From: Frankia alni ACN14a
GTDB lineage: Bacteria > Actinomycetota > Actinomycetes > Frankiales > Frankiaceae
DNA: 64,000 bases
Assembly: GCF_000058485.1 (NCBI RefSeq)
Contig: NC_008278.1
Location: 2,226,962-2,290,961 of the forward strand
Direction of reading: 5' to 3'
Shown: positions 4,958-21,980 of the stretch, piece after piece
How the letters are laid out: every line of letters begins with the position of its first letter
How positions within the stretch are numbered: position 1 is the stretch's first letter
The notes under the pieces: generated by a model
What the model was told of the DNA's origin: nothing
What the model saw: only the letters and a program-made list of their open reading frames with translations
The model's database searches: none
Made by a program: the position numbers and the translations under genes

Positions 4958-9884
<4,927 letters not shown>

Positions 9885-11277: not shown

Positions 11278-11374
11278 CCCGCCCGTACGGCGACACGCCC
11301 GAAACTCACTGAACGAAGCTAACTATTTACAGCCAGGCGTTGAATCGGGCCTCCTCTTCCTAGGGTGATCTCTG

Positions 11375-11393
11375 AAAGTAGCAATCTACTTAC
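11375..11393 (+). promoter_or_regulatory. Candidate regulatory dyad upstream of the secreted-protein gene
   Basis: AAAGTAGC, CAAT-like spacer, TACTTAC: a six-base inverted repeat (AAGTAG/CTACTT) just before the GGAGGA ribosome site. It matches the element at 2674-2692 at 14 of 19 positions, including the AGTA-N6-TACT geometry. It could be an operator or an mRNA 5' hairpin. Confidence 0.4.
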
Positions 11394-11409
11394 GGAATGG
11401 AGGAATTTG

Positions 11410-12783
11410 ATGCGAAGTTCGTTCCGCGTGGCACACCGGGTGGGACTGCGCCGGCTCACCGCCGGCGTCGTGTCCGGTGGCGTCCTCGCGGCCACCATGG
11501 TCGGTGTGGGGGTGAGTCCGGCCTCGGCCGTCGCCAACCCCTTGGCCTACGAGCAGTACGCCTATGGGACATCGGTCGCGCTGGGCGGCACGGTGACGTC
11601 GGGGCCGACGTTCCCGGCCGGGATCTCCTGCACGACCCTGCCGAACCAGGGGAGCAGCGCCGGGGGAGTCGTCAACATCCCCGGCGTGATCACGGCGGCC
11701 GCGGTGTTCCAGTCCGCGACCACCGCCGAGGCGGGTCCGAACAACAACCAGGTCGCGGTCACCCGTAGCACGGTGGCCAACGCGAGCATCCTGGGCGGGG
11801 TGGTCGGGCTCAGCGGCCTCGCCGTCACCTCGACCGCGGTCAACACCGGGACCGTCATCGCGAGCGCCGGCGCGGTCTCGCTGGGGAGCCTGACCGTGCG
11901 CGGTCTGCCGATCCCGCTGGGCGCCATCGGTCCGAACACGGTGATCGCGATCCCGGACATCGGCACGATCACGCTCAACCAGCAGACCGTCGCGGCGAAC
12001 GGGATCCGCACCATCGGGGCGCGGGTGCAGATCCTCGCGGGGCCGAACGCCGGCCTGGACATCGCGCTGGGCTACACCCAGTCGCGTTTCCTGCCGAAGC
12101 CGCCGGTGTTCGTGACCGGGGTGGCGTACTCGAACCTGATCGCGGCGGGTCCGCTGTCGGTGAGTCCGCTCATCGCGCAGAGCGCTCCCTGCAACGGTGG
12201 ATCCACCACGGCGAACCTGGCCGGCATCAACCTGCCGGGCATCCTCAACACCGGGGTGATCACCGCGTCGGGGGCGGCGGTCCTGGGTAATCCCACGCTG
12301 GCCGCCACGAAGATCACGTTGGCCAACATCAACATTCTGAGTGGGTTGATCACGGCCAGTTCGATCACCTCGCAGGCGAACGCCTCGAAGGGCAACGGCC
12401 AACCGGCCGTGATCGATGCCACCGGCACCCAGTTCGTCGGACTGTCGATCGCCGGGGTACCCATCCCGGCGAACGTGGCACCCAACACCTTCATCCCGCT
12501 GCCCGGCGTCGGGTACGTGGTGTTGAACCGCCAGATCCAGACCGCGAACGCGCTGGAGGTCCGGGCCGTCGAGGTGGTGATCCAGGTTGCGGGCGTGCTT
12601 CCGGTCGGGGCCGTGATCCGGCTCGGTGTCGCCTCGATCAACGCGTCCGACAACGGGGCGACCGCGCTGTCGGCGCCGATCAACGGGTACGACACCCTGG
12701 AGCTGTCCGCCCCGCACGCCGGCGACCTCTGCGGTGGCGTCGCGGACCCGGCGAAGTGCCTGGGGGTGAGTGACACGCTGTAA
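11410..12783 (+). CDS. Secreted protein with two homologous halves (choice-of-anchor-P-like)
   Basis: A 457-residue exported protein. Residues 1-40 are a signal peptide: basic start, hydrophobic core, cleavage after ASA. The mature part is rich in Ala, Val, Ile, Thr and Asn with few charged residues, suggesting a beta-rich extracellular protein. It contains an internal duplication: GLPIP..IGPNTVIAIP..G..TLN near residue 164 is echoed by GVPIP..APNTFIPLPG..VLN near 348. The opening AYGTSVALGG followed by a lone Cys resembles actinobacterial 'choice-of-anchor P' proteins, but I am not certain of that family. GGAGGA sits 6 bases before the ATG, and a strong terminator follows. It interrupts the sugar genes, so it may be a surface partner of the polymer. 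Confidence 0.7.
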   Translation: MRSSFRVAHRVGLRRLTAGVVSGGVLAATMVGVGVSPASAVANPLAYEQYAYGTSVALGGTVTSGPTFPAGISCTTLPNQGSSAGGVVNIPGVITAAAVFQSATTAEAGPNNNQVAVTRSTVANASILGGVVGLSGLAVTSTAVNTGTVIASAGAVSLGSLTVRGLPIPLGAIGPNTVIAIPDIGTITLNQQTVAANGIRTIGARVQILAGPNAGLDIALGYTQSRFLPKPPVFVTGVAYSNLIAAGPLSVSPLIAQSAPCNGGSTTANLAGINLPGILNTGVITASGAAVLGNPTLAATKITLANINILSGLITASSITSQANASKGNGQPAVIDATGTQFVGLSIAGVPIPANVAPNTFIPLPGVGYVVLNRQIQTANALEVRAVEVVIQVAGVLPVGAVIRLGVASINASDNGATALSAPINGYDTLELSAPHAGDLCGGVADPAKCLGVSDTL

Positions 12784-12988: not shown

Positions 12989-14407
12989 ATGCGAGTTGTC
13001 GTCGCGACGGAGGCACGGTTCCATCGGGGAGGCGACGACCGTGTGCTGGCGCCCACGCCCGGTGAGGCCTACCTGCACTGGTGCAGCTACCTCGGCGTCT
13101 TCGACGAGGTCGTGGTGCTCGCGCGGGTCGGCGCGGCACCCGGAGACCTGGCGGCGACGGCGTCCTTCCCCGTCGAGGGCGAGCGGGTCCGCGTCGTCGC
13201 GCTGCCGCCCTACCAGGGGCCGGCCGGCTACCTGCGAGCCAGAAGATCGATACTCTCCGTGATTCGCGACGGGCTCGACGTGGGCGGTCAGCTTGCTCCC
13301 ACCCCCCGCCGGCGCGCCGCGGCCGCGGGTGCCGCGCGCCGCGCCTTGCCGCCCGGGCCGATCCCGGCGCCGCGGTCGCCGGCCGGATCCCGCCCCGGCG
13401 CGCGGCCCGCCCGCTCGCCTTACGTCGTGGACACCCGCTACCTGGCGGTGATGCCCGGCATGGTCGGGGCCGCGCTCGTCACCGAGCTGCAGGCCCGCGG
13501 GCTGCCCTACGCCATGGAGATCATCGGCGACGCCGAGGCGGTGGCCGGCGGGATGTTCGGCCGCTGGGCGCGCCGGCCGGCACGGCGCTGGTTGGCCCGA
13601 CGGGCCGCGGGAGCCCGGGCGGTCGGCTACGTCACCCGCGAGACGCTGCAGCGCCGCTACCCGCCGGCGGCCGGAGCGTTGACGGCCGCCTACGCCTACG
13701 GTCGCCTGAGTGCCCAGGACTTCGCCGCGGCTCGGCCGCGTGCCGCCCGGCCGCCGGTGCCGGCGACCCTGGTGACGATCGGCTCGCAGGACCGCCGGTA
13801 CAAGGGCCACGACATCCTGCTGGCCGCGGTCGGCCTGCTCGACGCGTGGGGGCACCGGCTGCGCGTCGTCATCGTCGGCAGCGGGCGCCATCACTCCGCG
13901 CTCGTGCGCGCCGCCCAGCGTGCGGGTCTCAGCGACGTCGTCGAGTTCGTGCCGGCGCTCGACCGGGCCGGCGTGCGCGCCGTGCTCGACGCCGCCGACC
14001 TGTTCGTCCTGCCCTCCCGGACGGAGGGCCTGCCCCGGGTGCTCATCGAGGCGATGGCCCGCGGGGTGCCCGCGATCGCGACCGCGGTCGGCGGGAACGT
14101 CGAGCTGCTCGCGCCGCAGGATCTCGTCCCGCCCGAGGATCCCGAACGGCTCGCCCTGCGGATCACCGAGGTCCTCGCCTCGCCCGGCACGCTCGCCGCC
14201 ATGTCCGCGCGTAACCGCGCCGCCGCCGAGGACTACCGCGGCGAGCGGCTGGCCGCACGGGCGTCGGCCTTCTACGCGGCGATCGCCGCAGACCCGCCGG
14301 CGGACGGCCGCGCGGCGCCGCCACCCCAGCGGGGGACGGTGGTGACGGCGGCGCCGGCCGCGTCGCCACCCGCGCGGACCCCGCAGCCGACGGACCGGCG
14401 ATCATGA
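12989..14407 (+). CDS. Family 4 glycosyltransferase
   Basis: A 472-residue GT-B enzyme. The N-terminal acceptor domain (1 to about 255) is interrupted by an Ala/Pro/Arg-rich insert at about 110-145. The GT4 C-terminal domain has GSQDRRYKGHDILLAA near 268, then the LPSRTEGLPRVLIEAMARG donor-binding motif near 345. The start is placed at the ATG giving MRVVVATEARF; an upstream in-frame ATG would add only a short basic stretch. The stop overlaps the next start (ATGA). It should add one sugar to the lipid-linked repeat unit. Donor unknown. Confidence 0.82.
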   Translation: MRVVVATEARFHRGGDDRVLAPTPGEAYLHWCSYLGVFDEVVVLARVGAAPGDLAATASFPVEGERVRVVALPPYQGPAGYLRARRSILSVIRDGLDVGGQLAPTPRRRAAAAGAARRALPPGPIPAPRSPAGSRPGARPARSPYVVDTRYLAVMPGMVGAALVTELQARGLPYAMEIIGDAEAVAGGMFGRWARRPARRWLARRAAGARAVGYVTRETLQRRYPPAAGALTAAYAYGRLSAQDFAAARPRAARPPVPATLVTIGSQDRRYKGHDILLAAVGLLDAWGHRLRVVIVGSGRHHSALVRAAQRAGLSDVVEFVPALDRAGVRAVLDAADLFVLPSRTEGLPRVLIEAMARGVPAIATAVGGNVELLAPQDLVPPEDPERLALRITEVLASPGTLAAMSARNRAAAEDYRGERLAARASAFYAAIAADPPADGRAAPPPQRGTVVTAAPAASPPARTPQPTDRRS

Positions 14408-15714
14408 CCGCGGACGCCACCTCGACCCCCGTCAGCGCCCTGGAGGCCACCGGACGGACGGCCCCCGGGGACACCCACGTCGATCGGCGGCCGCAGGTCC
14501 CGACCGGGCCCGCGATCGAGTCCCGCCCCGTCGCCCCGGCGGCCGGCGTGACCACCACGGCCACCCGGCCGGGGCCCGGCGACGCCGGTCGGCCCCGCCG
14601 CCCGGTGCGGGTGCTGGAGGTGCTGGGCCGGATGGATCGCGCCGGGGTGGAGCTGCGCGCGGTGAGCCTGCTCCGTCGGCTGGATCCGGAGGAGTTCCGG
14701 CTGGACTTCGCCGTCACCTCCGGCGCCCCGGGTTCGCTGGACACCGAGATCCGTGGACTTGGCAGCGAGGTGTACTACTGCCGGGCCGACTGGCGGTTCG
14801 GCTGGCGGTTTCTGCGGCTGCTGCGCCAGGTCCGCCCCGACGTGGTCCATTCCGCCGTGGCGACCTTCTCCGGGGTGGTGCTCGCGCTGGCCCGCCTCGG
14901 CGGTGTGCGTCGACGGGTGGCGTACTTCGTCAGCAGCGCCGACCGGCACGGCGACAGCCTGCGTGGCCGAGTACAGCGGGCGGTCGGACGCCTGCTGCTC
15001 GACCGGTTCGCCACCGATCTCGTCGCGGTGAGTGAGGCGGCGATGCGGGGGCTGTGGCGGGAGGACTGGCGGCTCGACCCGCGCTGCCGCGTCGTCTACA
15101 ACGGCGTCGAACTGGAGCCGTCCGGGGTCGCCATCGCCGCGCGGCGCCGCGCCGAGGACCTGGCCGAGGACGAGCACGACGTCGTCACCCTCGTCCACAT
15201 CGCCCGCCCGGACCCGCTGAAGAACCGTGCCCGCGCCATCGAGATCCTCGCCGCGCTGCGGGCCCGTTCGGTCCATGCGCGGCTGCGCGTCGTCGGCCGC
15301 CAGGACGACGCCGAAACCGCCCGCCTGAGCGCGCTCGCCGACCGGCTCGGCGTCGCCGAGCACGTGGAGTTCACCGGCGAGGTCCGGGAGATCCCCCGGC
15401 TGCTCGTGGCGTCCTCGCTGCTGCTGGTCACCTCGCTGCACGAGGGCATGCCCACGGTGGTGCTGGAGGCGCTCGCGGTGGGCACCCCGGTGCTCTCGGC
15501 GGACCTGCCGGGGGTCGTCGAGATCGGCCGCCTGCTGCCCGGGGTGGCCACGCTGCCGCTGGCCACGTCGGACGCCGTCTGGGCGGACACCGCCGACATG
15601 CTCACCGCGGTCCCACCGACCATCGAACAGCGCCGCGAGGCGATGCGGCTGTTGCGCCGTTCCCCGTTCACGATGGACACCTGGCAGCGCGACATCACGG
15701 CGGTGTGGTCCTAG
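14404..15714 (+). CDS. Family 4 glycosyltransferase (EpsF-like)
   Basis: 436 residues. After a low-complexity first 60 residues, the GT-B fold starts with VRVLEVLGRMDRAGVELRAV, an opening shared with EpsF/Cap-type transferases. Further on are VVHSAVATFSG, KNRARAIEILAAL near residue 275, and the donor motif TSLHEGMPTVVLEALAVG near 345. It is coupled to the preceding glycosyltransferase by ATGA and sits 3 bases before the polymerase open frame. It adds a sugar in the same assembly line; specificity cannot be inferred. Confidence 0.84.
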   Translation: MTADATSTPVSALEATGRTAPGDTHVDRRPQVPTGPAIESRPVAPAAGVTTTATRPGPGDAGRPRRPVRVLEVLGRMDRAGVELRAVSLLRRLDPEEFRLDFAVTSGAPGSLDTEIRGLGSEVYYCRADWRFGWRFLRLLRQVRPDVVHSAVATFSGVVLALARLGGVRRRVAYFVSSADRHGDSLRGRVQRAVGRLLLDRFATDLVAVSEAAMRGLWREDWRLDPRCRVVYNGVELEPSGVAIAARRRAEDLAEDEHDVVTLVHIARPDPLKNRARAIEILAALRARSVHARLRVVGRQDDAETARLSALADRLGVAEHVEFTGEVREIPRLLVASSLLLVTSLHEGMPTVVLEALAVGTPVLSADLPGVVEIGRLLPGVATLPLATSDAVWADTADMLTAVPPTIEQRREAMRLLRRSPFTMDTWQRDITAVWS

Positions 15715-15717
15715 GCG

Positions 15718-18700
15718 ATGGCCGTCCCCCGCCGTGCCGCCGGACCGTGCCAGTCCCGGTGGCCGTACCCACCCGTCTCTGTGGCCCCCCTCCTGACCGC
15801 CCCGCCCACTCACACCGTCCCGCCCGATCGTGCCGTCCGGCTCGATCAGGTCGCACAGCTCGATCAGGTCGCCCCGCCCACTCGGACCGCTCGGCCCGAT
15901 CGGGGCGCGGCGCCGTCGCGACGGGCGAGCGGGGTGGCGCTCGCCGGCTGCCTGCTGGCCCTGTTCGCGGTCGCGGCCTGGTCGTCGTCGTTCGCCGCGC
16001 TGGCGGAGCACTCCGCCGCCCGGCTCAGCGTCGCGGTGGTCGCCGGCTGCGTGCTGCTGTGCGTCCGGGCCCAGCCGCGTGGGGTGTGGGCCTGCTCGTC
16101 GGTCTACCTGATCACCCTGTCGGTGTTCCACTTCGGGGTGGCGGCGCTGTTCGCCACCGGCACCTCCTTCGACCGGATCCGCGCTCAGTACGACTTCCGC
16201 TGGCTGGGCGTCTACCCGATGAGCCGGCTGTTTGCCGTGGCCACCCTGGGGGTCGTCAGCGCCGCGGTGGGCGTGGCGGCGATGACGTGCCTACGGGCCG
16301 TGCGTGCCGGCGGCGAGAGCTCCGAGCCCGCCGCGATCCACCGGTCGGGTGCCGCCGCGGATCGAGCGGCCGGCGCCGTGGACTGGCCCGCCCCCGCGGA
16401 TCGGCCGGCCCTCCCGGATCGACCGGACCTGCGTGCGCCCGTCGGATTCGCGTTGCTCGCGGTGTCGGTCCTCGGACTCGTCGCGATCGTGCTCGCCACC
16501 GGCGGAATCGGGCTGCTGTTCGGGTCGTACGCCGCGGTCGGCGAGACGGCGCTGCGCGGTCCGCTGGTGCCCTACGTGCTGCTGGGCCTGGGCCTGGGCC
16601 TCGTGCTCGCGGTCATCGGCGGGCCGAGCCGGTGGCGCACGGCGGCTCTGGTGGTGTTCGCCCTGTTCGCGGTCGTGGCGCTGCCGCTCGGGCTGCGGGG
16701 CGAGGTGATGTTCCCGGCCGTCGCGGCGGCGGCGGTGGCCGCCCGGCGACGCATCGTGGTACGCGGGGTCGTCGTCCTGCTCGGCGCGGTCATCCTGCTC
16801 GCGTTGATCGGTGGGCTGCGGGAGATCCGCCAGTCCGGCCTCGCCGCCACCCGGCTCGGCGCCATCACCTTCAGCCCCGTCGACGGGATCGCCGAGCTCG
16901 GGGCCTCGATTCGTCCGATCGGGTCGGTGCTCGAGTGGCGCGACGAGTTCGGCGAGCGCCCGCCCGCGGGCTCGACCTTCTACGGCCAGATCGACCGGTT
17001 GGTGTCCGGGCGGCTTCTCGGCCTCCCGCAGCCCCCCCAGTTCAGCGACGAGCGGCTGTTCAACGTGCTGATGCTCGATCGGGAGGGTCCCATCGGGGGG
17101 TCGCCGATCGCCGAGGCCTACTACAACTTCGGCGCTCGCGGCGTCGTCGGCTTCCTGCTGCTGACCGGACTCGTGGTGGCCTGGATGGACCATGGCCGGT
17201 CCGGGCGCGGGACGGACACGGCCTGCCTCGTCCTGCTCGTCCCGTTGATCACCGAGGTGCGCAACGCCTTCGCGGCGGTGCCGGTCCAGGTGATGCTCGG
17301 ACTGGGCGTGCTCGGGCTGACCCGGGCCGCCGAGATCGTGGCCGCCCGCACCCCCCGCACCGCCCCCACCCGGGCGCGCCGGGATCCGCCGCGGCCCAGC
17401 CCGACTCGCCCGCGCCCGCCTCGTCGCGCCGGGCAGTCCGGGCAGATCGGGCGACCCTGGCAGACGGGGCAGAAATGGCAAAAAGGGCGGTCGGGGCGGG
17501 CGCCGGTCGGGCGGCCTGGGCAGATCGGGCGGCTACCGGAGCAGGTGGTGCGACGGGCCAGGCGCGCGGGGCAGCAGTCCCTGCCGGCGTGGTCCGAGTC
17601 GGCGGTGGCGGTGGGAGCGTCGGTCAGGGGGCCGTGGATGACGGTGGACCCCGCACCGTCCACGCTCGGTCGGCGGGTGGGCATGGCGCACCCCTACCGC
17701 GGGATCGGCCGGGTCGGCGCGGTGGTCACCGGGTGGCTGGGGTTGTCCGCTCTCGCCAGCCTGGGCCAGGCGGTGGTCACCGCGCGGATGCTGCCCCTGA
17801 GCGGGCGCGGGGCGCTGGTGGTCCTGCTGACGGTCTCCGCGTTGGGCTCGCTCGTCGGCGGGCTCGGCACGAACGTCGCGTTCCGTCACTACTTCGGCCG
17901 CGGCGACCCGCGGGTGTCCCTCGGCGACTACCTGGGCCTCTCCGCCGCCGCGGCCCTACCCGCCGCCGCCCTGATCACCGTGGCGTCGCTGCAGGTGATC
18001 CACCTGTCCGGCGGGGCGCGGGTGGATGCCGCTCTGGTGCTCGCGATCGCCGTCCTCGCCGCCGCGAACCTGCTCGCCGTGCAGGTGCTCGACGCGCTCA
18101 ACGCCGCCGGCTCGATCGTGCTGGCCGCCGGGCTCGTCGCCGCCACCGGGCTCGCCCAGCTTGGGCTGCTGCTGGCCGGCCCGCGCCATCCGTCCCTGGC
18201 GCACATCCTGGTGATCCTCGCGCTGTGCTGGGCCGCGCAGGCGGTGACCGGGGTGACGGCGCTGGCCCGGATGGGCCTGTCCGTGCGGCCGCGGGCCGAC
18301 CCGCGGGCCTGGCGGCTGCTGGTCGTCAAGGGCGTCCCCGCGCTCGGGCTCAACGTGGGCGCGACGATGGCGTTCCGGTTCGACCGGCTGCTGGTCGCGG
18401 CCTTCGGCGGCGCCGGCGCCGCCGCCGTGTACTCGATCGCCGCCGCCACCGGCGAGGCACTGCGACTGCTGCCCGGTTCGGTCGGCCAGGTGGTCTTCCA
18501 CCGCGCCGCGCGGGGCGTGCTGTCCCGCGCGGCGCTGCGGACGGTGACCCGCAGCCTGCTCGCCCTTCTGCTGGTCGCCGCGGCCGTCCTCGCGCTCGCC
18601 GCGCCGTGGCTGGTGCGGACCCTGTTCGGGCCGGGCTATGCCGCGGCGGTCACCCCGATGCGCCTGCTGCTGGTCGCCGAACTCCTGCTGGCCCCGTTCC

Positions 18701-20037
18701 TGGTCGAGTGTCGGGCGTTGACGGGCCTCGGCCGCACCGGTGCGGCCGGTGGCGCCGGGCTGCTCGGCCTGGCCGTGTCGCTGGCGACCTACCCGGTGCT
18801 CGTGCCCTGGCGGGGACCCGCCGGCGCCGCGATCGGCAGCATGCTCGCCTACGCGCTCATGACGGCGCTGGCCCGCCGTGCGCTGCGGGGGGAGCTCGTC
18901 GCCCCGTTCGCCCGTCCCGCCGTGCCGCCGACGGTTGCCATTCTCCGCGTCGCCGACCTCGTCTCGCCCGTCCGGACCAGGTCGTCCGCGCGAGCCGGGC
19001 GGGGACGGTCGGCTGCCAGTCCTCGGAAAGGGGAGGCCCTGATGGCACCACATCCGGCGCGCGACACCCTCGTCGTCGAGCCGACCGCTCACGGCGGGCG
19101 GCTGGTGTTCTACCGCCGGGCGGCCGACGCCGCCTACTGGGACGAGCTGTGGGACGCCCAGCCCGCGGACTACCGCCGAGCCCGCGCGGGCCATCTCCCG
19201 CTTCACCTGCGCCGGGCCGTCCGTCGCCACCTGCGGCCGGGCGGCCGGGTCCTGGAGGCCGGGTGCGGGCCGGGGCAGTTCAGCGTCGCGATGGCGGCGC
19301 GGGGATTCGCCGTCGAGGCGGTGGACTGGGCGCCGCGCGCCGTCGAGCGGCTGCGCGCGGCCGCTCCCGAGATCCGCGTCTGGCAGGGCGACGTCCGCCG
19401 GCTCGACGTGCCCGACGGGCGGTACGACGCCGTCTACTCGCCGGGCGTGTGCGAGCACTTCGAGGACGGCCCGCAGGAGGTGCTGCGCGAGACCCTGCGC
19501 GTGCTGCGACCGGGCGGGATCGCGCTGGTCTCCACGCCGTGCTTCAGCCCGCTGCTGCGCGTCCTGAGCCGCGGCGCCGGGGCTGGTGGTGCCCGGGCTG
19601 GTGGCGTCGGCGCCGGTGGCGCCGGGTATGAGGGCGCCGGCGTTGGTGGCGCGGGCTCCGGCGGGGGGCCGGTCTGGCTGCCGCGGCCGCGTGCGGGTGC
19701 GGGTGAGTTCTACCAGTACGCCTTCACCCCGGCGGAGCTGGCCGCCGTGCTGCGCGCCGTCGGCTTCGAGCGGGTGCGGGCGCATCCCTACGGAGCGCTC
19801 GCCACGGCGCTGGAGTTCACCGCCGCCGGCCGGGCCGTGTCCACCCGCGTTCCCCGCCCGCACCTGCGGCCGCTGGAGGCCGCCCTCGACCTGCTCGGCG
19901 CGGCCCACCTGTCCGGCCGGGCCTGCCTGTGGGTGGCCCGCCGGCCGGCGCACCCGCCGGGGTCGAGCCGCGTCCCGCGACCCGCGGCGTCGCCCGCCGC
20001 CCTCCCGTCCACGACCCGGAAGGACCGTTCCGCATGA
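15718..20037 (+). CDS. Wzy polymerase - Wzx flippase - SAM methyltransferase in one open frame
   Basis: One uninterrupted frame of 1439 residues holds three polysaccharide functions. Residues about 70-550 are a multi-spanning polymerase with the GGSPIAEAYYNFG motif near 462 typical of oligosaccharide repeat-unit polymerases. Residues 550-655 are a basic Gln/Gly/Arg-rich linker. Residues about 656-1080 are a polysaccharide-exporter flippase with around twelve helices. Residues 1109-1439 are a class I methyltransferase with LEAGCGPGQFS near 1180. Two internal ATGs have ribosome sites: 17638 (AGGGGG, spacing 6) and 19042 (GGGGAGG, spacing 5). The flippase and methyltransferase could therefore also be made alone. 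The first 65 residues are low complexity, so the true start may be later. The stop overlaps the next gene (ATGA). Confidence 0.8.
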   Translation: MAVPRRAAGPCQSRWPYPPVSVAPLLTAPPTHTVPPDRAVRLDQVAQLDQVAPPTRTARPDRGAAPSRRASGVALAGCLLALFAVAAWSSSFAALAEHSAARLSVAVVAGCVLLCVRAQPRGVWACSSVYLITLSVFHFGVAALFATGTSFDRIRAQYDFRWLGVYPMSRLFAVATLGVVSAAVGVAAMTCLRAVRAGGESSEPAAIHRSGAAADRAAGAVDWPAPADRPALPDRPDLRAPVGFALLAVSVLGLVAIVLATGGIGLLFGSYAAVGETALRGPLVPYVLLGLGLGLVLAVIGGPSRWRTAALVVFALFAVVALPLGLRGEVMFPAVAAAAVAARRRIVVRGVVVLLGAVILLALIGGLREIRQSGLAATRLGAITFSPVDGIAELGASIRPIGSVLEWRDEFGERPPAGSTFYGQIDRLVSGRLLGLPQPPQFSDERLFNVLMLDREGPIGGSPIAEAYYNFGARGVVGFLLLTGLVVAWMDHGRSGRGTDTACLVLLVPLITEVRNAFAAVPVQVMLGLGVLGLTRAAEIVAARTPRTAPTRARRDPPRPSPTRPRPPRRAGQSGQIGRPWQTGQKWQKGRSGRAPVGRPGQIGRLPEQVVRRARRAGQQSLPAWSESAVAVGASVRGPWMTVDPAPSTLGRRVGMAHPYRGIGRVGAVVTGWLGLSALASLGQAVVTARMLPLSGRGALVVLLTVSALGSLVGGLGTNVAFRHYFGRGDPRVSLGDYLGLSAAAALPAAALITVASLQVIHLSGGARVDAALVLAIAVLAAANLLAVQVLDALNAAGSIVLAAGLVAATGLAQLGLLLAGPRHPSLAHILVILALCWAAQAVTGVTALARMGLSVRPRADPRAWRLLVVKGVPALGLNVGATMAFRFDRLLVAAFGGAGAAAVYSIAAATGEALRLLPGSVGQVVFHRAARGVLSRAALRTVTRSLLALLLVAAAVLALAAPWLVRTLFGPGYAAAVTPMRLLLVAELLLAPFLVECRALTGLGRTGAAGGAGLLGLAVSLATYPVLVPWRGPAGAAIGSMLAYALMTALARRALRGELVAPFARPAVPPTVAILRVADLVSPVRTRSSARAGRGRSAASPRKGEALMAPHPARDTLVVEPTAHGGRLVFYRRAADAAYWDELWDAQPADYRRARAGHLPLHLRRAVRRHLRPGGRVLEAGCGPGQFSVAMAARGFAVEAVDWAPRAVERLRAAAPEIRVWQGDVRRLDVPDGRYDAVYSPGVCEHFEDGPQEVLRETLRVLRPGGIALVSTPCFSPLLRVLSRGAGAGGARAGGVGAGGAGYEGAGVGGAGSGGGPVWLPRPRAGAGEFYQYAFTPAELAAVLRAVGFERVRAHPYGALATALEFTAAGRAVSTRVPRPHLRPLEAALDLLGAAHLSGRACLWVARRPAHPPGSSRVPRPAASPAALPSTTRKDRSA
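19030..19044 (+). promoter_or_regulatory. Internal ribosome-binding site and ATG for the methyltransferase part
   Basis: GGGGAGG at 19030-19036 lies five bases before ATG 19042, inside the long frame and exactly where the methyltransferase domain begins (MAPHPARDTL). This suggests that the methyltransferase is translated separately, in addition to or instead of as a fusion. Confidence 0.55.
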
Positions 20038-21980
20038 AGATCGCCACATTGGTCAAGACCGGGGACGGGCCGTTGTGGATCATTCCGCACGTGCTCGCCG
20101 CGCGGGAGTCCGGCGACCAGGTGGTCGTGCTGCTGCCCGCGCCCGACCACACCGACAGCCGGGTGGCGCGTGAGCTGACGGCGCTGGGGATCGAGGTCGT
20201 CGAGAGTCCGGCTCCCCGGCGCCGCGCGTCGCCGGCCGCGCAGATCGTCGGGATCGTTCGGCTGCGGGCGAGGCTGCGCGAGCTCGGCGTCGACGTCGTG
20301 CACTACCACCTGTACGCGTCGGCGCTGGCGGTCCGGCTCGCCACCCTGGGTACCCGGATCACCCGGGTCTACATGGTCGCGGGGCCCCTCTACCTGGACA
20401 ACACCCCGATCCGGTGGGCCGAGCGGGTGCTGTGCCGGCTCGACCACCTGCTCATCGCGTCCAGCGCGGACATCCGCGGCCGGTACGCGGCCCTCGGACT
20501 GCCGGCGCACCGGATGCGCACCCTGTCCTACGGCGTCGACCTGGAGCGCTTCAGCCCGGCCGACGACGAGCGGCGGCGGGCGGCGCGGGCGCAGCTCGAC
20601 CTCGGCGAGGACGAGTTCGTCGCGGTCTGCGTGGCCTACTTCTACCCGCCGAAGCGGCTGGTCCATCCGGGCCAGGGCGTCAAGGGCCACGAGGTGCTCC
20701 TCGCGGCGTGGGCCCGCTTCGCCGAGCGGGGCGGCCGCGGGACGCTGATCCTGCTCGGTGGGGGCTACGGCGAGGCCGGCGAGCGCTACCGCGAGCAGGT
20801 CCGGGCATGGGCCGCCCGGCTGCCCGGCAACGAGTGGGTGCGCTGGGTCGACAGCGTCACCGACGTCCGGCCGTTCTACGCGGCCGCGGACGTCAACGTC
20901 GTGTCGTCGTGGTCGGAGAGCTACGGCGCCGGGGCCGAGGCGTCCGCGTGCGGGGTTCCCTCCGTCGCCACCGCGGCCGGCGGGCTGCCGGAACTGGTCG
21001 ACGAGGAGACCGGCTGGCTCGTCGGACTCGGCGATGCCGTGGCGATGGCGGACGCCCTGCAGGAGGCCGCGGCCGGCCGGCGCACGCCCGTGGCCCGCCG
21101 CCGCGGCGAGGCGGCCCGGGTGCGGGCGGAGAAGCTGCTCGACCGCCGGGCGCTCAGCCACGATGTGGTGGCGGCACTGCACCACGCCGCCCGCGTGCGG
21201 CAGGCGCCGCGCCGCGGGCTGCATCGGGCGCCGTCCCCGAGGCCCTCCTCGGGTCAGTCGTCCCCGTCCTCCCCGCCCTCCCAGCCATCCCGGCCATCCC
21301 ACCCATCCCGGCCGTTCCCGTCGCTCTCTGCGCTCCTGGCGGCCCGTCGGGCCGGGAGGGACCGGCCGGACAGGGGGGCGTTGGCCGGGCAGGTCCGCCG
21401 GTCGTCGCTCGCGGCGCTGCCCGGTCGGGCGGCGCGGGCGGCCGTCCGCACCTACCTGCTGCGCACCGATCCGGTGGGGTACGCCCGCAGCATCGGGGTG
21501 CGGCTGGGCGCGGACTGCCGGTTCATCGGGGTCACCGCCGCCACCTTCGGCACCGAGCCCTACCTGATCAGGCTGGGTGAGCGGGTGGCCATCGCCGACG
21601 GCGTCCGGTTCATCACGCACGACGGCGCGGCGACCCGACTGCGCCGGGAGCACCCCGACATCGACGTGGTCGCGCCCATCCGGGTCGGCAACGACACCGC
21701 GATCGGGATGAACGCGATCATCATGCCCGGCGTCACGATCGGCTCCGACGTGGTGATCGCCGCCGGCTCCGTGGTGATGCGCGACGTCCCGGCGCGGTCC
21801 CTGGTCGCCGGGGCGCCGGCCCGGGTGGTGACCGACGTCGAGCAGTGGGAGCGGCGGATGCTCGCCCGCTCGGTGGGCACCGGGGCGATGAGCCCGCAGC
21901 GCAAGCGGGAGGTGTTCCTCGACCGGTTCGCGGCGGAGCTCGCGGCGGATCCGTCTGATATTGTTAGCACCGCTAATTAA
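20034..21980 (+). CDS. Family 4 glycosyltransferase fused to a hexapeptide-repeat acyltransferase
   Basis: A 648-residue bifunctional protein. Residues 1 to about 390 form a GT4 transferase: [20 protein letters not shown], then [10 protein letters not shown], then the donor-site region [21 protein letters not shown] Ser/Pro-rich linker (about 400-430) joins it to a left-handed beta-helix acyltransferase at about 470-620. Its hexapeptide turns read as [23 protein letters not shown]-like repeats, ending VAGAPARVV as in maltose/serine acetyltransferases. A single protein could add a sugar and O-acetylate it or the chain. The ATG at 20034 overlaps the preceding stop; an upstream in-frame start would add only antisense-looking residues. 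Last gene of the plus arm. Confidence 0.85.

Follow-up and report, generated by a model that had tools for sequence, protein, structure and literature searches.

A probable conserved Wzy-Wzx fusion in Frankia with the adjoining methyltransferase as a separate cistron

Wzx/Wzy-dependent assembly, as in O-antigen, ECA and rhizobial EPS, uses the same two activities as the Frankia protein considered here, a flippase and a polymerase. The MOP fold comprises 12–14 helices, and MOP flippases fused to other domains exist, for example mycobacterial MviN/MurJ with its pseudokinase domain. The Frankia protein would likewise combine a flippase with a covalent extra domain, although its partner is a polymerase and lies on the N-terminal side. 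In the portions of the literature on Wzx/Wzy-dependent systems that we drew on, flippase and polymerase are described as separate proteins, in contrast to the one chain predicted in Frankia. A Wzx-Wzy-Wzz complex was proposed from genetic (complementation) data, and in Rhizobium a co-polymerase was proposed to bridge flippase and polymerase, according to excerpts of two papers which both cite Marolda et al. 2006 for the complex (PMC10030265, PMC5748678). The Frankia fusion shares with that proposal the idea that flipping and polymerisation are coupled. However, the case for the complex, as given in these excerpts, consists of complementation genetics and a bridging co-polymerase, whereas the Frankia link would be covalent and direct. 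Two matches to the Wzz family (PF02706) are present in the window's genome, megabases from the locus. Since the same excerpts have the physical Wzx-Wzy unit argued mainly from genetics (PMC10030265, PMC5748678), a fusion found in nature and conserved would speak strongly, if circumstantially, for coupling, and the existence of fused and unfused close relatives makes the effect of tethering testable by splitting and joining. Among the matches listed from the full-text literature, judged by title or abstract start, no Wzy-Wzx fusion was described, most subscription journals lying outside this coverage; exact fusion phrases for Wzy-Wzx gave no match in the literature covered, and papers on Frankia alni polysaccharide, judged in the same way, held nothing on this fusion.

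We followed up a first-pass annotation of a 64,000-nucleotide stretch of Frankia alni ACN14a (the window), which had read a polymerase, a flippase and a methyltransferase as one protein. Comparison with the sequences of relatives leads us to conclude that Wzy-Wzx in Frankia is probably a conserved and real fusion, and that the methyltransferase is a separate cistron with strain-level readthrough.

The open frame and its domains

The 1439-residue frame is present as claimed (15718–20037, plus strand) and open over its full length from an ATG to a TGA. Its first codon lies 3 nt past the point where the upstream glycosyltransferase gene stops, and at its other end its stop and the start of the following gene overlap as ATGA; its parts are collected in Table 1. 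The start region of Wzy is alike in seven genomes, with the ATG at the same offset in eight. G+C across the frame is 0.70–0.80 in 300-base windows, and meaningless long frames are common at 70–80% GC: a 1525-aa frame overlaps the 1439-aa one, and within 9–27 kb an antisense frame reaches up to 1117 aa. The length of the frame is therefore no evidence, and the relatives decide. We rejected length as an argument for fusion because of the overlapping 1525-aa chance frame and because the long flippase frames inspected in other actinobacteria also look extended by chance. A control with PF13440 found 69 places in 50 of 118 genomes of the class (actinobacterial), seven of them in open frames longer than 770 aa; in the six of these seven that were inspected by eye, the upstream part had an out-of-frame, non-membrane look before a plausible flippase start and did not resemble a polymerase. 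Because the threshold here was E up to 1e-10, divergent flippases, the Frankia Wzx itself among them, escape this control.

Table 1. Features of the open frame and adjacent genes (window positions; anti-SD pairing energies in kcal/mol)
Feature	Position	Strand	Basis or remark
Upstream glycosyltransferase gtA	14404..15714	+	Same frame as wzy; stop kept in 8/8 Frankia where both read
Wzy-type polymerase part	15718..17346	+	PF14296, start region, hydropathy
Low-complexity N-terminus of Wzy	to about 15927	+	Followed by about 10 hydrophobic segments
Wzy-Wzx linker	17347..17694	+	Arg/Pro/Gly/Gln-rich, basic, shared frame without stop
Candidate internal start, free Wzx	17638..17640	+	ATG, anti-SD -10.1
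Alternative Wzx start	ATG17683	+	Anti-SD -8.0; close to where wzx starts in F. tisae and F. gtarii
Wzx-type (MOP) flippase core	17695..18897	+	Profile-profile match; weak PF13440
Variable Wzx C-terminal tail	18898..19041	+	Frame-changed relative to F. torreyi
TGATG	19040..19044	+	Relatives' wzx stop overlapping methyltransferase start; here out of flippase frame
SAM-dependent methyltransferase	19042..20037	+	Own start, strong ribosome site; stop overlaps next start (ATGA, 20034–20037)
GT4 glycosyltransferase, low-complexity linker, hexapeptide acetyltransferase	20034..21980	+	Neighbouring conserved fusion (predicted)
Predicted tryptic peptides diagnostic of fused Wzy-Wzx			GPWMTVDPAPSTLGR, AGQQSLPAWSESAVAVGASVR

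The three domain labels given earlier hold, by Pfam for Wzy and the methyltransferase and by profile comparison for Wzx. O-ag_pol_Wzy (PF14296) matches residues 297–526 with E 1.3e-13 and 50.9 bits against a cut-off of 26.6, the match covering positions 193–446 of 468 in the profile, that is, its second half only. The Wzy part has 10 or 11 hydrophobic segments in seven proteins by crude hydropathy, which leaves the exact number uncertain, and is thus multi-spanning. RX10G motifs lie in two large periplasmic loops of Wzy, according to an excerpt of PMC5748678; alignment A5 contains three invariant RX10G strings, of which a pair falls between hydrophobic segments 8 and 9; at 81% mean identity the three could be chance. 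Methyltransferase families match at about residues 1164–1351, all above cut-off (PF13649, 1.3e-18; PF08241, 1.9e-18; PF13489, 2.2e-18). The middle domain gave no Pfam match at 1e-3, and the Wzx segment stayed below cut-off for the Polysacc_synt families (PF13440, E 0.0022, 17.7 bits against 23), with a best PF13440 E of 1.5e-4 among the 13 members of the Wzx family. However, a profile of the 13 Wzx relatives compared with one of 12 PF13440 MOP flippases from 12 genomes gave 98.9% (E 3.4e-17, 340 columns), and the single negative control, the Wzy profile, gave 0.2%. The predicted flippase identity, weak by Pfam, is thus firm by profile comparison. Neither the Wzx nor the Wzy profile matched any solved structure at E up to 1.

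The polymerase-flippase junction among relatives

We searched 40 genomes, the window's own included, and found the Wzx part in 13: the window's, 11 of the 12 other genomes of the genus (it was missing from G010), and one of another genus, which served as outgroup (G013). Wzy was found in eight of the 13 same-genus genomes, again counting the window's. The window's clade comprises its own genome (G000), F. torreyi CpI1 (G011), AiPs1 (G012), QA3 (G003), F. tisae (G009) and F. gtarii (G002); the other Frankia group holds F. canadensis (G008), AgB32 (G004), AgKG'84/4 (G007), R82 (G001), Ca. F. nodulisporulans (G006) and AiPa1 (G005). A scan of genome contigs returned 11 loci, all from Frankia species already in the set, and the plasmid collection gave no match. 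PF14296 itself occurs in 11 of 296 genomes of the class and in seven of 396 of a phylum sample; in these searches no PF14296 protein outside Frankia had an open frame longer than 662 aa.

In seven of the eight Frankia that have both genes on one contig, no stop interrupts the frame that leads from Wzy into Wzx. These are the window's genome, F. torreyi, QA3, F. canadensis, AgB32, Ca. F. nodulisporulans and AiPa1, of which the first and third are single-contig genomes. Separate genes were seen only in F. tisae, where the TGA of wzy overlaps the GTG start of wzx (GTGA), and in the outgroup, where the overlap is ATGA. In AiPs1, F. gtarii, AgKG'84/4 and R82 the contig ends 57–199 bases upstream of the Wzx core and the frame is open as far as the sequence goes. 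The linkers measure 186–363 nt between matched ends, with seven lengths that all keep the frame, and are of low complexity with 11–24 Lys/Arg and 1–6 Asp/Glu. In a tree of Wzx and the glycosyltransferase (supports 43–85 at six nodes and 99–100 at four), fused genomes branch on either side of the deepest split in Frankia, with F. tisae and F. gtarii nested in the window's clade, so that one early fusion followed by one later separation would be the simplest reading. The first-pass annotation had suggested looking in related Frankia for a conserved absence of stops, and this comparison bears out the Wzy-Wzx fusion; the same comparison finds the Wzx-methyltransferase junction closed in 10 of 12.

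What weight the missing stop can bear depends on how easily such a frame arises. Calculated from the dinucleotide make-up of each of the seven linkers, the probability that one frame lacks a stop is 0.41–0.89 per linker, and over all seven there are no stops in the shared frame and four and two in the other two. No marked excess of third-position substitutions was seen in the linker in eight genome pairs. Between the window and F. torreyi, differences at the three codon positions number 22, 16 and 14 in the linker, 11, 16 and 10 in the low-complexity N-terminus, and 17, 11 and 34 in the Wzx core. The cores do show a third-position excess, and the low-complexity N-terminus and the tail behave like the linker, which thus appears free of amino-acid constraint, as a spacer would be. 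We therefore abandoned this test as a discriminator, since it fails to separate a disordered linker from a spacer. The frame offset between wzy and wzx relative to the window is kept in six of seven Frankia relatives. However, the control intergenic gap between acetyltransferase and aconitase keeps its offset in six of eight (wecB-ugdh, two of three; ugdh-anchor, two of three; anchor-gt1, one of three), and frame agreement between genomes was rejected as sole proof. Because these frame statistics do not discriminate, the case for fusion rests on the missing stop.

We consider it unlikely that wzy and wzx are two ordinary separate genes whose spacer merely happens to be stop-free in GC-rich, repeat-prone DNA, so that the open frame would be meaningless. 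The high chance of a stop-free linker, its lack of constraint, the frame agreement seen also at an intergenic gap, and the separate genes of F. tisae and the outgroup all speak for this. However, a separate wzy must end somewhere, and no in-frame stop occurs before the end of wzx in seven genomes, whereas gtA, upstream in the same frame, keeps its stop in 8/8, so ordinary gene ends are detectable by the same method. Translation of wzy should thus yield a fused chain, or else the same error would have to have arisen in parallel in seven genomes. Error in sequencing or assembly, which could have removed the stops, seems very improbable to us. Contigs of four of 12 relatives do end within the linker, where weak tandem repeats occur and assembly must be hard, but the same result was obtained in the genomes of seven species, two of them in a single contig.

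The methyltransferase junction and internal starts

At the second junction, a stop closes the frame ahead of the methyltransferase in ten of 12 Frankia and overlaps a start codon as TGATG, GTGA or ATGA; the junction is open only in the window and in F. gtarii. The window retains GGAAAGGGGAGGCCCTGATG there, including the TGATG. Its Wzx tail is 13 nt longer than that of F. torreyi (gap 192 versus 179), with the result that the TGA and the flippase are in different frames. Across 18908–19041 all three frames lack a stop, so that a change of frame in this stretch is open by default. Anti-SD energies at the start codons that overlap these stops range from -7.0 to -12.5 in nine of ten genomes and stand at -1.5 in AiPa1, where the true methyltransferase start is uncertain; of ten starts measured in the window, ATG19042 (-12.5) has the strongest ribosome site. 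Readthrough at the level of the strain thus probably accounts for the three-part protein, and translation from ATG19042 would still supply the methyltransferase. The earlier proposal that the methyltransferase forms a third fused domain does not describe a conserved feature, in view of these stops and of the out-of-frame TGATG that the window keeps. Both linkers are basic and of low complexity as claimed.

Good ribosome sites had also been noted at ATG17638 and ATG19042, and their anti-SD energies of -10.1 and -12.5 kcal/mol agree with this, set against a median of -3.2 for the 82 in-frame start-like codons in 15940–18890, of which ATG17638 is the strongest; by chance, roughly one in ten of these 82 codons, which lie in the window's cores, attains -7.0. 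The scan for in-frame Wzx starts reached back at most 70 codons from the core. In the window's clade, all six genomes have a Wzx start at -8.0 or better, at differing positions (window, -10.1 and -8.0; F. torreyi, -11.1; AiPs1, -10.6; QA3, -13.4 at a GTG; F. tisae, -8.0 at a GTG; F. gtarii, -10.1). In the other group the best upstream values are -5.9 in F. canadensis, -5.7 in AgB32, -6.1 in Ca. F. nodulisporulans, which also has -9.6 at a GTG within the flippase, and -3.1 in AiPa1. AgKG'84/4 gives -3.1 in the 103 bases of contig available, and the 199 bases of R82 hold a single GTG, beside the contig end and without a score. Weak sites in this group were at one point taken as strong evidence against free Wzx. 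This argument was dropped, as the starts of wzy itself are equally weak (-5.5 in six of eight, -2.7 in two), and other accepted starts are weak as well (gtA, -4.1; ugdh, -2.2; the outgroup's presumed wzx start, -1.5). Free Wzx is thus possible in both Frankia groups and proven in none.

How much these internal starts contribute is the main question on which readings of the locus differ. One reading is that fused Wzy-Wzx is made but that most of the work falls to free Wzx, started at ATG17638 or ATG17683, and to free methyltransferase, started at ATG19042; to this we give slightly less than an even chance. The three strong sites in the window, the pre-Wzx sites of -8.0 or better in the five other genomes of its clade, sites in F. 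canadensis, AgB32 and Ca. F. nodulisporulans as good as those of wzy itself, and the conserved overlap at the methyltransferase start all argue for it. On the other hand, the start positions shift between genomes: F. torreyi has ACG in place of ATG17638, QA3 lacks this codon, and ATG17683 is GCG in AiPs1. AiPa1 and AgKG'84/4 offer only -3.1 or weaker in the scanned stretch, and R82 only the GTG at its contig end. Of the nested starts suggested earlier, then, the one for the methyltransferase is well supported, with its strong site and conserved start overlap, whereas a flippase start is possible and ATG17638 is not conserved. A true three-part enzyme with a selected function in the window's strain we regard as quite improbable. 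The frame is open in the window, and the flippase-methyltransferase junction is open in F. gtarii too. However, the stop in most relatives, the out-of-frame TGATG kept together with its ribosome site, the three stop-free frames that leave a frame change open by default, and the fact that the methyltransferase is broken in QA3 all weigh against such an enzyme. We think the chances about even that Wzy-Wzx is a genus-level covalent machine with obligatory coupling, in which the stop was lost at an overlapping junction and the fusion was kept in both deep groups and separated once later (in the F. tisae line). On this reading it would be one case of a wider tendency of the locus to link enzymes that act in succession through low-complexity linkers. 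That the weak pre-Wzx ribosome sites are no weaker than those of wzy makes the word obligatory less sure. The fusion is not essential, because F. tisae has two separate genes and a strong start occupies the corresponding place in F. gtarii.

In QA3 (G003, locus L016, about 11500–12000 in match orientation) the first 157 residues of the broken methyltransferase gene are unmatched, and two matching pieces lie in different frames.

Proposed mechanism and locus context

In the proposed mechanism, the polymerase would be joined to the MOP-type flippase through the low-complexity, basic linker. The loop between the last Wzy and the first Wzx segment carries 16–29 Lys/Arg, the largest or second-largest count before the C-terminus by crude hydropathy, and such a Lys/Arg-rich linker is presumably cytoplasmic by the positive-inside rule. 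With no in-frame stop before the end of wzx, a fused chain would result whenever wzy is read through. The tether could hold the polymerase beside the flippase in a one-to-one ratio, and lipid-linked repeat units might be handed over while they emerge on the outer side of the membrane. Internal starts may add free Wzx. The methyltransferase would be a separate cistron with its own strong start, and the change of frame in the Wzx tail of this strain would permit ribosomes to read through, so that a three-part product could arise that is not a conserved design.

The surrounding locus encodes a PF00953 transferase, a UDP-GlcNAc 2-epimerase, an NDP-sugar dehydrogenase, a GDP-mannose dehydratase family protein and several glycosyltransferases. 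We take the PF00953 transferase to be WecA-like, and the predicted content fits a Wzx/Wzy pathway. Directly downstream, one uninterrupted frame covers the GT4 glycosyltransferase and the hexapeptide acetyltransferase in nine of nine Frankia whose contig carries the two, and the outgroup has them as separate genes; by these signs the pair is a second fusion in the style of Wzy-Wzx. Growth of repeats over stops may be the origin of the fusions.

Several proteins of the locus start or end in repetitive Pro/Arg/Ser/Gly stretches, for example at the C-terminal end of the GDP-mannose dehydratase family protein, and the repetitive gene ends (8246–8700 and others in 1–22000) coincide with tandem repeats of 9 or 18 nt. 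Positions 11365–12783, inside the polysaccharide locus, encode a choice-of-anchor P family protein; it is unmatched in F. torreyi and F. tisae, though the flanking genes are matched on both sides. About 10 kb before the window lies a second flippase-family gene (PF13440; G000:C1:2216882-2217616), and at 4958–7165 a zinc-type alcohol dehydrogenase and a Gfo/Idh/MocA oxidoreductase are found in one frame.
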